Shown: in pieces, positions 1 through 52,610 of the stretch
How the letters are laid out: each line of letters opens with the position of its first letter
Numbering within the stretch: position 1 is the first letter of the stretch
Assembly: GCA_903825395.1 (NCBI GenBank)
Contig: CAIKAF010000015.1
Span: 62,001-126,000 of the forward strand
DNA length: 64,000 bases
Source: an uncultured Flavobacteriales bacterium
GTDB taxonomy: Bacteria; Bacteroidota; Bacteroidia; CAIKAF01
Reading direction: 5' to 3'
Translations under genes and position numbers: made by a program
Notes under the pieces: model-generated
Told to the model about the DNA's origin: nothing
The model's database searches: none
The model's input: only the letters and a program-made list of their open reading frames with translations

Positions 1-2061
1 CTGGAGTGCGCTTGGATTTTTGAGAGTGAAACCCATTCCTTCGGGTCTCATGCCATTCAAGCCCAAACTCAAACCCTAGACATTAAACGCCTAGCCGATA
101 CCTTACAAGTGCAAGCCAAGCAGGCTAACGGTTCAGCCTTGCTCGCTCGAATTAGCCTAAAAACCGGAAAAACAAACCTGTATTACAACGGGAAATTAAT
201 GGCGGCCTCTGTCCATAGAACCTCAACCAAATCTAAAAAATCAGGGAACAGCCTTCGGGCCCAATTGGTTCAGAAAACACCCTGGATGGGCGGTGGAGCA
301 AGGGTATTGGGAATGGATCGAAAAGGACATATTCTTCCCTTATACAACCGAGCCCATTATGGGTATGAAACCCATTCCGAGCAAATGAACTTTGGGGTTC
401 CTCTGGTGCTTACAGGTCAAAAATTCATGATCCACCTGGACAACAGCTACACCGGTAGTATAGATATGGGCAAAACAAAGGCAAATGAATTGGTATTCAA
501 TACCGACGGAGGCCGTCAGGTTCTGCAATTTATCGCATCAAGTTCCTGGCCTGAACTAATGAAACAGTGGACCTCGTTGAGTGGTCGGCAGCCCCTTTTG
601 CCATTATGGGCGCTGGGCAACATCAGTAGCCGCTTCGGATACCATTCCCAAAGAGAAGTACAGAACACCATTGCCGCTTTTAAAGCCTATTCCATTCCCG
701 TTGAAGCCTTGATTTTAGATTTGTATTGGTTTGGAAAAACCATCAAAGGAACCATGGGGAATTTGGCCTTTGACCCGGACTCCTTTCCTGACCCAGCATC
801 AATGATTCAAGAGCTGCATGCCCAAGGGCTGCGCTTTGTTCCCATCACTGAGCCCTTTATTCTAACCAATTCAAGCAATTGGAACGATGCCCTAGCCCAT
901 GGCGCGCTGGCAACAGACAGCTTGGGCAAGCCCGCCATGTATGACTTTTATTTTGGCAAAACCGGTCTGATTGACCTGTGGGATTCTTCGGGTTCCAAAT
1001 GGTTTATGAATAAATACCACTGGTTAATGGAATTAGGTGCCGATGGGTTTTGGGGTGATTTGGGCGAACCTGAAGTCCACCCGGATTGGGTTCAACATAA
1101 AATTGGTGAGGCTCGGAAGGTGCATAATATTTATGGACATGAATGGGCCCGACAGGTCAACGCGGCCATGCGCCAACACCGGCCTGAAACCAGGCCATTT
1201 ATTTTGATGCGGGCCGGGTATTCAGGCAGCCAACGCTATGGTATCATTCCCTGGTCGGGCGATGTAAATCGAAGCTGGGGTGGCCTGGCGGCGCAGCCTG
1301 AAATATCCTTGCAAATGGGAATTCAGGGGCTTGCATGGATGCATTCAGACCTGGGCGGATTTGCCGGCAATTATTCAGATCCGGAATTGTATTTACGCTG
1401 GCTTCAATATGGCGTTTTTCAACCCATTTTCCGTCCTCATGCCCAGGAAGAAGTACCTAGCGAGCCTGTTTTTTGGCCAGAACCCACGCGGAATGAAGCC
1501 AAAAAAATCATTGAAATGAGGTACAGCCTCATGCCCTATTTGATTGATTTAATGCATGAAAATCATCGAAATGGGATGCCCTTGATGCGACCTGCATTCT
1601 TTTACGACAGCTCTGAAACGGCTTCAACCTACAGCAAAGGTTATTTTTGGGGCGAGCACATCTACGTGTGCCCTGTTCTGCACAAAGGCATTAAAAAAAT
1701 GTCGGTGTACCTGCCTGCCGGTAAAAATTGGTATGCGTGGGAAGACACCACTTGGTATGCCGGCGGTCAAACCATTGAACTTACGCTCACACCGCAGCAA
1801 ATTCCCGTTTTTGTAGCAGAGGGTGCTCTACTTCCCCTGGCTACTCGCAGCATTTCTCCTGAAAAATTAGAGCCATCGCACATAGAGTGGGTGCATTATC
1901 CCTGGCGGAAACAGGGGCAGACTTCAGGAAGCTACACCTTAGAATGGGCGGGGAATGTTGAATCGATTTCCTGGAAAACCAATCGGCAAGGTATTCAAGT
2001 AGATGGAATGAGGGAAGGCCGCTGGGCACACTACCGTACCCTGGGTGTGAAGGTTCGGTGA
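1..2061 (+). CDS. Glycoside hydrolase family 31 (alpha-glucosidase-like), 5' truncated by window edge
   Basis: Frame 1 is open from base 1 to the stop at 2061; the listed ORF start at 109 is an internal GTG. GH31-like motifs: LILDLYWFG, DGFWGDLGEPEVHPDW, RAGYSGSQRYGIIPWSGDV. Confidence 0.85.
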   Translation: MECAWIFESETHSFGSHAIQAQTQTLDIKRLADTLQVQAKQANGSALLARISLKTGKTNLYYNGKLMAASVHRTSTKSKKSGNSLRAQLVQKTPWMGGGARVLGMDRKGHILPLYNRAHYGYETHSEQMNFGVPLVLTGQKFMIHLDNSYTGSIDMGKTKANELVFNTDGGRQVLQFIASSSWPELMKQWTSLSGRQPLLPLWALGNISSRFGYHSQREVQNTIAAFKAYSIPVEALILDLYWFGKTIKGTMGNLAFDPDSFPDPASMIQELHAQGLRFVPITEPFILTNSSNWNDALAHGALATDSLGKPAMYDFYFGKTGLIDLWDSSGSKWFMNKYHWLMELGADGFWGDLGEPEVHPDWVQHKIGEARKVHNIYGHEWARQVNAAMRQHRPETRPFILMRAGYSGSQRYGIIPWSGDVNRSWGGLAAQPEISLQMGIQGLAWMHSDLGGFAGNYSDPELYLRWLQYGVFQPIFRPHAQEEVPSEPVFWPEPTRNEAKKIIEMRYSLMPYLIDLMHENHRNGMPLMRPAFFYDSSETASTYSKGYFWGEHIYVCPVLHKGIKKMSVYLPAGKNWYAWEDTTWYAGGQTIELTLTPQQIPVFVAEGALLPLATRSISPEKLEPSHIEWVHYPWRKQGQTSGSYTLEWAGNVESISWKTNRQGIQVDGMREGRWAHYRTLGVKVR

Positions 2062-2075
2062 GTTTAAATTTTTTA

Positions 2076-2231
2076 GGGGGTGGGCGGCAGACGGGCTTTC
2101 TCCGGTTGTCCGCGCCGGCAGGTGCCGGGGCCAGCGGGCTTGCGTGGGCTCCCAAGGTCGCCTCCGCGCCGCGCGGCCCCCGCTCCTGCCTGCTTGCGGG
2201 CAACTCGGTTCAATCCCTGCCGCAAGGCCTC
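2076..2231 (-). repeat. Dispersed ~150-bp structured GC-rich element, copy 1 (canonical form on minus strand)
   Basis: Shares GTTCAATCCCTGCCGC, GGGCTTTCTCCGGTTGTCCGCG and GGCTCCCAAGGTCGCCTCC with the other copies. Arms 2117-2132 and 2175-2190 are complementary at 14/16 positions. Confidence 0.85.
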
Positions 2232-2395
2232 ATTTCATCCAATACCCTATTTCCAGATTCCAATGCCTCTTCTAATTTCCCCAAAATAAAAGGCCATTCT
2301 CAACCAATAAACATTGGACAGATTGAATTCAAATTTCAGGACAAAGTTCAACCACAAATGGCAGACTCAAACATAAAAAAAATGTTAAGTGTCAT

Positions 2396-2426
2396 TTTGA
2401 CAATTAGAAAAGTTGTTTTAGCTTAG
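2396..2426 (+). promoter_or_regulatory. Candidate Bacteroidota-type promoter for susC
   Basis: TTTG (2396-2399), N19, TAGCTTAG (2419-2426; one mismatch to TAnnTTTG), 18 nt before the ATG at 2445. Confidence 0.45.
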
Positions 2427-2444
2427 ACGGATAAAACTTAGGCT

Positions 2445-5400
2445 ATGCACCTACATCGAACTCTTTTTGTTTATGTTTTCCTACTGGTTTTGCCCGTTTT
2501 GGTAGTTGCCCAAAACGTGACCCTGCAGGGAATTGTACGCGACCAAAATGGCAAACCAGTGCCCTTCGCGACCATCAGTTTAAACGAGCAACCAGGTGGA
2601 AGTTCAGCCGACATCAACGGAGCGTATTCGTGGACTTTTCCTTTCAAAAGCGACGCATCCAAGGTACAGGTGGTATTTCGGTCTCAGGGCTTCAAGACCA
2701 TTCGGTTGGACTATGAACTTAAGCCGGGCATCAATGTGTTAAATGCCAATCTTCCGGTCGATGTGCTTCAATTGGAAGACGCGGTGGTGATTGGTTACGG
2801 AACCGCTAGGACCAAAGATTTAACCGGTTCGGCCGTTCAAATTAGTGAAAAAGATTTCAATGAAACTCCGGTGGCTACTCCAGAGCAACTGATAATGGGT
2901 AAAGTGGCCGGGGTGAAAATCACCTCCAACGACGGAGCCCCCGGTTCGGGTTCCAACATTCGGATTCGGGGCGGGACTTCCATAAATGCCAGCAACGACC
3001 CCTTAATTGTAGTTGATGGAGTTCCTTTGGACAATGGAGGAATTGCGGGATCTGCAAATGCCTTGGCACTCATTAATCCCAACGACATAGAATCGTTTGT
3101 TATCCTCAAAGATGCATCAGCAACAGCCATTTATGGAAGTCGCGGTGCAAATGGTGTAATTTTAATCACCACAAAAAAAGGAGTAAAGGGAAAAAGCAAA
3201 TTCAGTATTGGGGTTGACCACCGAACTACAGTTTCGGTATTGAACAATTATTCAGGCGTACTTACAGGCGATCAATTCAGGGCCTTGGTAGATTCGTTGG
3301 GAACTGGAGGCCAAAAAAATCGACTGGATTCAAACAACACCAATTGGCAGGCTGAAATTTACAGGGCGGCCATAATGAACGAAACCAGCATTTCGTTTAC
3401 CGGCGGAATTTCATGGTTGCCCTACCGCCTATCGGTATCGGCTCGTTTTGAAGATGGTGTATTGCAACGCGACCGCTTAAACCGCTATACTGCATCATTA
3501 AACCTGAATCCCAGCTTTTTTGATGGGCACTTGGCCTTTAATGTACAGCAAAAATTCACCCACAGCTACAACTTTTTCGCCAACCGAGGTGCCATTGGTT
3601 CTGCGGTGATCTTTGACCCCACTAAGCCCGTCTTTTCCGGAGATTCTGCCTTTGGAGGCTATTTTGAATGGATTCAAAACAATGGAAAACCCAACAACCT
3701 CGCCCCAAGAAACCCAGTAGGCCTGTTAAATCAACGCGATGATTTCAGCCAAGTGTACCGGTGGATTGGAAACGTTGAAACCAGCTATAAGTTGCACTTC
3801 TTTCCACAATTAAGGGCTGTAGTCAATGTGGGAGGCGATTTTTCAAACGGATCGGGTGAAACCAGCACCACAGCCTCTTCTGCTTCAGGATTCAATACTC
3901 GGGGTTCATGGAATGAATATACCTCTACCAAATGGAACCGATTGGCTGATTTTTATCTGAATTTTAGCAATGCAGAAAAAAAACCTGCATTTCGAACCGA
4001 TTTAACGCTGGGCTATTCGTATCAAGATTGGTCCACCAGTTCCCCCTCCTTTGCCACCTATACCTTTGATCGAGATTCCATTATATTCCCGGCCAATCCC
4101 AATCCCTTTTACACCAAAAACGTCCTTATTTCGTATTATGGTCGGGGAATTGTATCGTACAAAGACAGGTACGTGCTGAATGCTTCGCTGCGCCGAGATG
4201 GTTCAAGCCGTTTTTCTCCAGACCAACGCTGGGGCTTGTTCCCAGCGGTATCGGCCGCATGGCTGCTCAGTGAAGAGGCATTCCTGAAGGGGAATAAAAT
4301 CTTAACCTACCTAAAATTAAGGGGTGGATATGGGGTTACTGGTCAACAAGACATTTTCGCCGACTATCCATACATTCCAAACTATCAAATTGGCACCTCA
4401 ACCGCTTTATATCCTTTTGGGGGAGAATTTCTTGAAGTATGGCGGCCGGATGGTTATGATCCAAACATTCGTTGGGAAACCACCAGCAGCTACAATCTGG
4501 GATTGGATTTTGGCATCTTGAATGACAGAATTAATGGCTCGGTAGATGTGTACCACCGTCGAACCGATGATTTATTGGCTATGGTTGCCATTCCAGCAGG
4601 AACCAATTTCACCAACGAACTGTTGACCAACGTGGGTAGTATGGAAAATACGGGCGTTGAAATTGGAGCCAAATTCGGATTGATAGATCGGCCTCAATTC
4701 CGATTGGATTTGGGTGTCAATGCCACCTACAACATCAACCAAGTTTTGAAACTTTCTCAAGTAAATGATTCTACCAGCCCTGGCATTTTGGTGGGCGGAA
4801 TTGCCGGAGGAATTGGCAACAATGTACAAATCCACACCGTTGGATTCCCCACCTTTTCTTACTATGTATATGAGCAGCGGTATGACGAGAACGGCCGGCC
4901 AATTGAGGCAAATACAGCCAATCCAAACGGGGGAAATTATACCGACCTGGACGCTTTTGTTGACCGAAACGGAGATGGTGTAATCAACATCGACGACCGC
5001 TATCGGTTTGAACAGGTGGCTCCTGATTGGTTCTTGGGTTTGAATTTAAATCTGACCTACAAGCGTTGGACTGCCGGATTTTCAATGCGCGGAGAAATCG
5101 GAGGACATTTGTACAACAACATTCATTCCAATGCCGGCACATTTCAAGCTGTGGGCGGAGCTCAACCCTTCTTGAACAACATTAGCAGCCTTTATTATTT
5201 GGATGAATTGCGACGCAATACAGATAAGCAATTGCTGAGCGACCATTACATTGAGCGGGCAGATTTCCTACGCATGGACTATTTTACCTTGGGTTACAAC
5301 TTTGGTAAACCCGGCTTCCTAGGACAAAAAGTTGGCATCAATGCTTCATTTACCGTCAATAACGTATTTGTCGTAACCGGTTATCAGGGATTAGACCCAG

Positions 5401-13746: not shown

Positions 13747-13825
13747 GGGATGGGGCAATATAAATCTAAATCTGGAGCTTGAAGGTGGTTGCAACGTGGG
13801 TTGTGAATCTACTCCGTTTTTCAAT

Positions 13826-13974
13826 GCGGCAGGGATTGAACCGGGTTGCCCGCAAGTGGGCCGGAGCCTGGCCCGCGTGGTGCGGAGGCGACTTTAGGAG
13901 CCACCGCAAACCCGCTGGGCCAGCCTTCCGGCCAACGCGGACAACCGGTGAAAGCCCGTCAGCCGCCCCCAAAA
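13826..13974 (+). repeat. Dispersed ~150-bp structured GC-rich element, copy 2
   Basis: GCGGCAGGGATTGAACC...GGTTGCCCGC...GGAGGCGACTTTAGGAGCCACCGC...GCGGACAACC...GAAAGCCCGTCAGCCGCCCC; arms 13859-13874 and 13917-13933 pair as GGCCGGA/TCCGGCC and TGGCCC/GGGCCA. Confidence 0.88.
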
Positions 13975-26910: not shown

Positions 26911-26916
26911 TTTTTT

Positions 26917-27066
26917 GGGGCGCTGATCCGGCTGTCACAGGTAGCGGCTTGGTGTCGCCGGTTCGGGGCTGGCCTGCTGCGGTGGCTCCCAAGGTCGCCT
27001 CCTCGCCGGGCCCCGAATCGGCACCACCTACACCGGCTACCTTGTTCCATCCGGGCGCCAGGCCTC
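26917..27066 (-). repeat. Dispersed ~150-bp structured GC-rich element, copy 3 (divergent)
   Basis: Keeps the core TGCGGTGGCTCCCAAGGTCGCCTCC. Outer and variable stems are rewritten but complementary: AGGTAGC (26939-26945)/GCTACCT (27036-27042) and CCGGTTCGGGGC/GCCCCGAATCGG (27010-27021). Confidence 0.75.
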
Positions 27067-27226
27067 AAAAGTGCCTAACCCATTCCATGAAATTTATTGG
27101 ATATGAAGTATCAAATCTACAATTGGCATCCATTTGCTAAAAAATCTTCTTCGATTTAAATCACTGTTTATCAACGCCATATGTTTATTGTACCTATAAA
27201 ACTTCAAAAATATAGCCCCTTTACCC

Positions 27227-27257
27227 TTGAAACTTAAAAAACACATGGGTATCTTTG
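27227..27257 (+). promoter_or_regulatory. Candidate promoter in a ~670-bp intergenic region
   Basis: TTG (27227-27229), N20, TATCTTTG (27250-27257); no convincing + strand ORF downstream. Confidence 0.4.
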
Positions 27258-27735
27258 TAGTTCACTGGTGAAACGTTCTTTAAATGCTTCGTCACGTATT
27301 GGGGTGGCGAGGAACACTTTGGGTTATTTTTATGATGTGAAGTTTGTTTGAAGAAAGATAAGCCGAAAGGGTTATCTGGATTCAATTGGGGGGTCTCAGA
27401 AATGCTTTCTTATTTTGTTGGGGGTGACTTTGACAAATAGGGAAGCGGGAATTTCGGGTATGAGACTGGGTTGGTGCGGCAGATCAGCCCTTTTTGATTG
27501 GGGAGTAACAGAGGATGTGGGATGAGGATTGGGTTCTACATTTTTTAGGCTCTCGGTTTTGTGGAAAGTTGGGCCTTGCCCAAGGGAAGACATCCTGCCA
27601 GTTTTGGTGCGGATGAAAAATCATTGGCTAGAACGATTCTCTACCCCTCCCTTGTAATGAAGAAATTCAACCTCAAGCGCTAAGAACCGAATTGATCGAA
27701 TTCAATTCGTTAAAAGGAGCCTCAAACGAATTTGA

Positions 27736-43799: not shown

Positions 43800-43951
43800 G
43801 AGTGGCTTGCGGCAGGGATTGAACGGTGTTGCCCGCAAGGGGGCCGGCGGCAGGCGCTGTTGAGCTAGGAGGCGACGTTAGGAGCCACCGCAGCTTTACA
43901 GCGCCCCGTCCGGGCACCGCGGACAACCCGAGAAAGCCCGTCAGCCGCCCC
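43800..43951 (+). repeat. Dispersed ~150-bp structured GC-rich element, copy 4
   Basis: Same conserved blocks as copy 2; variable stem GGCGCTGT (43853-43860)/ACAGCGCC (43898-43905) is perfectly complementary. Confidence 0.87.
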
Positions 43952-43981
43952 AATAAAACAAAAAATAAATTAGGACTTACC

Positions 43982-52403: not shown

Positions 52404-52551
52404 GAGGCCCGCGGCAGGGATTGAACAGGGTTGCCCGCAAATAGGGCGGCGGCTGGCGCTGCGCGGTGAGGAGGCGACTTTAGGAGCCACCGCAGCCCGC
52501 TTGCGCCCCGCCCGGCCTATGCGGACTACCCGTGAAAGCCCGCAGCCGCCC
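52404..52551 (+). repeat. Dispersed ~150-bp structured GC-rich element, copy 5
   Basis: Same conserved blocks; stems GGGCGG (52444-52449)/CCGCCC (52508-52513), GGCGC/GCGCC and GCGGTG (52463-52468)/CACCGC (52488-52493). Confidence 0.88.
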
Positions 52552-52610
52552 AAATATCAACCATTTTCCTCCTTTCCAAATTGATTTTTTAGTAGGTTTG
52601 AACTGTGCGC

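Follow-up and report, generated by a model that had tools for sequence, protein, structure and literature searches.

Architecture of the repeat

The window analysed here, 64,000 nucleotides of contig CAIKAF010000015.1 from an uncultured Flavobacteriales bacterium, holds five copies of a repeat, all belonging to a family with at least 150 copies in the genome. The whole element is about 140 nt, longer than the initial annotation had it, and copy 2 covers 13826-13966 plus conserved edges. An alignment of 35 copies yields one long rod-shaped hairpin that runs from a basal helix to an apical hairpin (Table 1). From the base upward, the helices GCGGC/GCCGC and GGG/CCC are followed by a highly conserved loop, ATTGA/GAAAG, and a second helix; above these come a hypervariable stem and the upper helix, and the rod is capped by a nearly invariant apical hairpin of the form GGC-GA-C-loop-G-GA-GCC. 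GATTG is invariant or nearly so in this alignment, and the GGG/CCC pairing is reversed to CCC/GGG in other copies. The apical hairpin is built of three G-C pairs, a tandem G.A, a C-G pair and a 4-nt loop, which reads CTTG, TTTA or GTTA among copies. The passage of PMC9969394 that cites Nakano 2002 gives cCNNGg and cGNNAg as stable DNA tetraloop motifs; the C-G-closed CTTG and GTTA loops fit these and TTTA does not, a match that is only suggestive.

Table 1. Parts of copy 2 and positions of the other copies in the window
Feature	Position	Strand	Basis
Copy 2, full R1/R2 match	13820..13972	+	R1 168.8 bits; R2 E 8e-33
Basal helix, 5' arm GCGGC (partner GCCGC, 13962-13966)	13826..13830	+	covariation (helix 1)
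GGG (partner 13955-13957), then conserved internal-loop strand ATTGA	13832..13839	+	35-copy alignment
Second helix, 5' arm ACCGGGTTGCCCGC (partner 13937-13949)	13840..13853	+	alignment columns 22-36 with 121-133
Variable (copy-specific) stem, 5' arm: GGGCCGGA and CTGGCCC	13858..13874	+	up to 4 Watson-Crick types per pair
Upper helix, 5' arm: GCG, GGT, GCGG	13875..13886	+	covariation, 35 and 108 copies
Conserved apical hairpin GGCGAC-TTTA-GGAGCC	13887..13902	+	invariant alignment columns; loop counts
Upper helix, 3' arm: CCGC, ACC, CGC	13903..13915	+	covariation, 35 and 108 copies
Variable (copy-specific) stem, 3' arm: GGGCCAG and TCCGGCC	13917..13933	+	covariation, 35 and 108 copies
Second helix, 3' arm	13937..13949	+	35-copy covariation
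Internal-loop partner GAAAG (conserved) plus CCC	13950..13957	+	alignment; also conserved in Flavo-1
Basal helix, 3' arm GCCGC, then CCCCAAAA	13962..13966	+	covariation; flank composition
Copy 1	2078..2229	-	R2 E 1.5e-24; orthologue in G003 at L116
Copy 3	26913..27066	-	R2 E 3e-22; same site filled in G001, G005 and G003, stems compensated
Copy 4, arms GGCGCTGT/ACAGCGCC	43803..43954	+	R2 E 1.3e-24
Copy 5	about 52405..52556	+	R2 E 1.2e-25

Two features lie outside the modelled fold in copies of the window's own genome (G000): a conserved leader, approximately TTT-A-GG..TGAGGNGGCCY, 20-35 nt upstream of the hairpin, and a G-poor, A/C-rich stretch of 20 nt after it. Within the upper helix, alignment columns 67 and 92-93 are coupled. 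Where GC precedes GGAGG, CCGC is followed by AA; where GA precedes it, by a single A. This is a structural switch, coupled to length, that separates two subtypes.

Covariation of the stems

The initial annotation described arms that differ between copies yet stay complementary within each. The arms quoted for it were found in the sequence: GGCCGGA (13859-13865) with TCCGGCC (13927-13933) and TGGCCC with GGGCCA in copy 2, GGGCGG with CCGCCC and GGCGC with GCGCC in copy 5, and likewise those of copies 1, 3 and 4. A third pairing proposed for copy 5, GCGGTG/CACCGC, is also present but only as an alternative register; covariation backs a register in which GGY is paired, further out, with RCC.

Compensation is stronger than had been claimed. 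In the 53-pair rod of 35 copies, standard pairs fill 88.1% of cells against 72.6 +/- 0.6% in shuffles, a shift of the partners by 1-3 columns lowers pairing to 33-48%, and both sides have changed at 40 of the 53 pairs. Doubly compensated cells number 251, against 85 +/- 6 in shuffles, and no measure was reached by any of 500 shuffles. Across 108 copies, Watson-Crick pairs occupy 92.4% of 5693 cells, a single pair can show as many as four Watson-Crick types, and the best-aligned pairs are almost free of mismatches; copies with non-complementary arms are not as frequent as complementary ones. The same architecture and strong covariation emerged from an independent lineage, in which 61 copies from G002 and G004 were aligned de novo.

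Change in place, gain and loss

Orthologous copies, together with the independent covariation in G002 and G004, exclude the neutral decay that the initial annotation had argued against. In G001 and G005, as in the window, copy 3 comes directly after one and the same gene (identity ~70%). There the element can be aligned and the 5' intergenic flank cannot, and the stems have been rewritten with compensation. Over five orthologous element positions in G000, G001 and G005, 64 of 567 compared pairs are double replacements of one Watson-Crick pair by another, with 5 G.T and 9 A.C among the one-sided changes. In the comparison of G000 with G003, whose flanks are ~90-99% identical, 42 pairs have changed, 23 of them on one side and 11 on both. 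One-sided changes are therefore visible between close relatives, and compensation is stepwise.

G003 carries an identical copy 2, whereas in G001 and G005 the region upstream of the triosephosphate isomerase gene lacks it. G002 and G004 nevertheless have, just upstream of that gene, a diverged element oriented like copy 2, which suggests that copy 2 is old and has been lost from one branch. Among the genomes compared, the copy at L055:2923-3076 is present only in G005, so gains or repeated losses also occur. Selection maintains the fold of copies that remain at their sites, and it does so through stepwise compensatory mutation. Of the two alternatives that had been offered for the paired arms, the data support selection on the fold. 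Because compensation occurs in copies that stay put, there is no need to invoke a folded intermediate that was transferred repeatedly; such transfer could still have played a part in the original spread.

Copy number and distribution

The 2.63-Mb genome contains 150 instances of the core pattern GGAGGCGAC-N(1,2)-T-N-GGAGCC and none of the reversed pattern. All six genomes of the genus contain between 105 and at least 150 model matches each, with at least 150 in both G001 and G005. The records that match the model are Bacteroidetes MAGs, several of them from lakes. Other genera of the same family have from a few to 58 matches per genome. The 58 matches are in G014, against 4, 3 and none in its sister genomes G009, G013 and G015; copy number shifts quickly between species. 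At the level of the class, matches to the covariance model R2 (see below) were obtained in 61 of 196 genomes. Six genomes of a single genus, g14 (G023, G067, G104, G135, G164 and G193), each gave 1460-3363 preliminary R2 candidates, far more than other genomes, an excess that might stem from a very large expansion or from sequence composition.

Genomic context and orientation

The repeat occupies intergenic DNA. Of 108 copies, 96 share no more than 15 nt with any open frame of at least 150 aa. Most of the remaining 12 sit at one end of a predicted frame, which we read as overextension of the start codon. In tandem-gene contexts from three sets, the two orientations are equally frequent (49 vs 49). 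Among contexts in which both neighbours are resolved, 45 lie between divergent genes. Genes lie nearer the element's 3' end than its 5' end, with a median of 10-19 nt from the 3' end to a stop codon and 60-80 nt to a start codon. Most copies are single, not doublets. All 19 close pairs (<400 bp) have the head-to-head arrangement, their 5' ends being 30-152 nt apart; they come from G000, G001, G005, G002, G004 and one G003 assembly record, and two more pairs in G013 are arranged likewise. Placement of the copies is thus indifferent to the direction of transcription, and the members of a close doublet are always arranged 5'-to-5'.

There is no target-site duplication: a flank match of at least 4 nt was seen in 7 copies, against 6 in shuffles. 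The 5' flank pairs with the 3' flank no more than shuffled sequence does, and no decayed partner element was found in the 5' flanks of single copies. Other repeats are present nearby. A second structured-looking repeat lies at 27200-27517 of the window (GCTTCGTCACG...GTGGCGAAG, ACTTC...GTGAAGT, GTCTCAGAAA...TATGAGAC); it has more than 20 copies in the examined DNA of the genus, several of them 5' of the main element and in either orientation, and has no Rfam match. A further repeat family is common to the 5' flanks of the elements at L085, L097, L103 and L018, with tandem units of ~105 bp at L085.

Kinship with Flavo-1

Direct identity of the window copies with an Rfam family was rejected: their matches are at chance level, mostly to miRNA models, and none reaches the gathering threshold of RF01705 (Flavo-1), 42 bits. 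RF01705 has no match in G000 or G001 and matches 98 of 245 genomes of the class. The link is made by intermediates in genomes of the family, which match both RF01705 and R1, a model built partly from copy 2, at the same places (E values against RF01705: L164, 3e-5; L171, 4e-4; L163, 2.5e-3); the best intermediate scores 40.6 bits against RF01705, below the gathering threshold. R2 was built from relatives, without this species and with no copies from G000, G001, G003 or G005. It recovers all five window copies (E 3e-22 to 8e-33) and matches three of 20 strong, true Flavo-1 loci tested (L272, E 9e-9; L266, 6e-5; L276, 5e-4). Because a model of relatives alone finds both, the repeat belongs, on this evidence, to the Flavo-1 superfamily, as a long branch that Rfam does not see.

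Weighing the alternatives

Flavo-1 is classed as a probable RNA (Rfam; Weinberg et al. 2010, PMC2864571), and it is possible, if rather doubtful, that the repeat is a structured noncoding RNA, transcribed from the plus strand or lying in untranslated regions and acting on stability or as an sRNA. Its conserved purine-rich loops lie on one strand, and purine-rich G.A internal loops so placed are also expected of an RNA motif. In F. psychrophilum, some Flavo-1 matches fall in 5' transcribed regions, but the same transcriptome shows no strand rule, the matches lying "indistinctly" sense or antisense to transcripts and many lying outside them (PMC9723704). The even orientation relative to neighbouring genes and the 45 divergent contexts also speak against an RNA. 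G.T pairs make up ~1% of cells, barely above A.C. Counting all cells of the 108 copies gives 61 G.T and 69 A.C, a parity overstated by misaligned cells, so isolated sites are preferred. At isolated sites flanked by Watson-Crick pairs, G.T exceeds A.C by 52 to 32 (p 0.04), an excess that leans slightly to the plus strand and that we weigh lightly; the G000/G003 comparisons give 9 to 3. In contrast, the acceptor stems of 15 tRNAs in the same DNA give a ratio of 9:0 (Fisher p 0.025 against 52:32). The scarcity of G.T and the lack of an orientation rule together disfavour a one-strand RNA gene, and they leave DNA and either-strand RNA undivided.

The frequent convergent contexts (33 of 87 resolved in G000) and the short distance from the 3' end to an adjoining stop codon would suit a transcription terminator or 3'-end stabiliser of the neighbouring gene. 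We consider this improbable: the composition of the flanks reveals no T-run 3' of the hairpin on either strand, and divergent contexts outnumber convergent ones by 24 to 10 in G002, G004 and G014. Slightly less credible still is an origin of the complementarity in mutation itself, through template switching or quasi-palindrome correction that copies one arm onto the other. Such copying would yield the strict Watson-Crick pairing with few G.T that is seen, yet close orthologues differ mostly by isolated one-sided substitutions, and conserved mismatched loops, which correction would erase, persist inside the stems. Least probable is a mobile repeat of the REP/REPIN type spread by a RAYT (TnpA-REP) tyrosine transposase. 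The many intergenic palindromic copies and the head-to-head doublets recall REPINs, but G001 and G005, each with at least 150 scored copies, lack Y1_Tnp (PF01797); the element, at ~140 nt, is no short REP, and most of its copies are old and occupy orthologous sites. RAYT was also rejected as a mobiliser in that its presence is uncorrelated with copy number.

Proposed recognition of the fold by a host protein

The reading we prefer, with a probability of about 0.5, is that the repeat is a long rod of the Flavo-1 superfamily whose fold is read by a host protein, as DNA or as RNA from either strand. A putative host protein would recognise the folded strand by its conserved loops, and the stems would need only to be paired. 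The recognised form could be folded DNA, as a single-stranded hairpin or cruciform, or RNA from either strand; both are likelier than a dedicated one-strand RNA gene because there is no gene orientation rule and G.T pairs are few. The element may have spread by occasional ancient duplication or transposition acting on the structure, with copies now probably inherited mostly vertically.

More tentatively, the Flavo-1 superfamily at large might be a DNA-structure element (hairpin or cruciform) and not an RNA gene family. It would be ancient, read by a Bacteroidota protein and present singly or as head-to-head doublets, with selection keeping the fold at more than 100 sites per genome. Flavo-1 has been unexplained since 2010, and none of the papers examined here that name the motif assigns it a function. 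The new family adds hundreds of covarying copies, orthologous sites compensated in place, strict head-to-head doublets and a branch invisible to Rfam. It allows concrete tests of DNA versus RNA and of which protein reads the element.

Comparison with known systems

Like the attC sites of integrons, the repeat conserves its fold while its sequence varies. Unlike them, it is dispersed singly in both orientations and not arrayed, and its GTT/AAC motifs stand in the opposite order (5' GTTG, 3' CAAC); attC sites have the order RYYYAAC ... GTTRRRY and are accompanied by an integron integrase. The repeat resembles MITEs in being short, non-coding and present in many copies with inverted ends, but it lacks a target-site duplication and a linked transposase, and its copies are old and probably inherited vertically. 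With REP/REPIN sequences it shares an intergenic position, palindromic form and high copy number; its close pairs recall their inverted doublets, but single copies prevail, and it differs from them further in its length and in having no RAYT in two copy-rich genomes.

The closest likeness is to Flavo-1, which is also found in Bacteroidota as many dispersed copies with a variable stem. Both form a single rod hairpin with the internal-loop strands GAUUG...GGA...GAAAGC. The repeat is ~140 nt and GC-rich, whereas Flavo-1 is 76 nt. The second internal loop of Flavo-1, GCGGAA/GUAGCGG, has become a paired helix in the G000 copies and is still present in some G002/G004 copies and some family intermediates. 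Relative to Flavo-1, the repeat has in addition the conserved apical hairpin GGCGAC-NTTN-GGAGCC.
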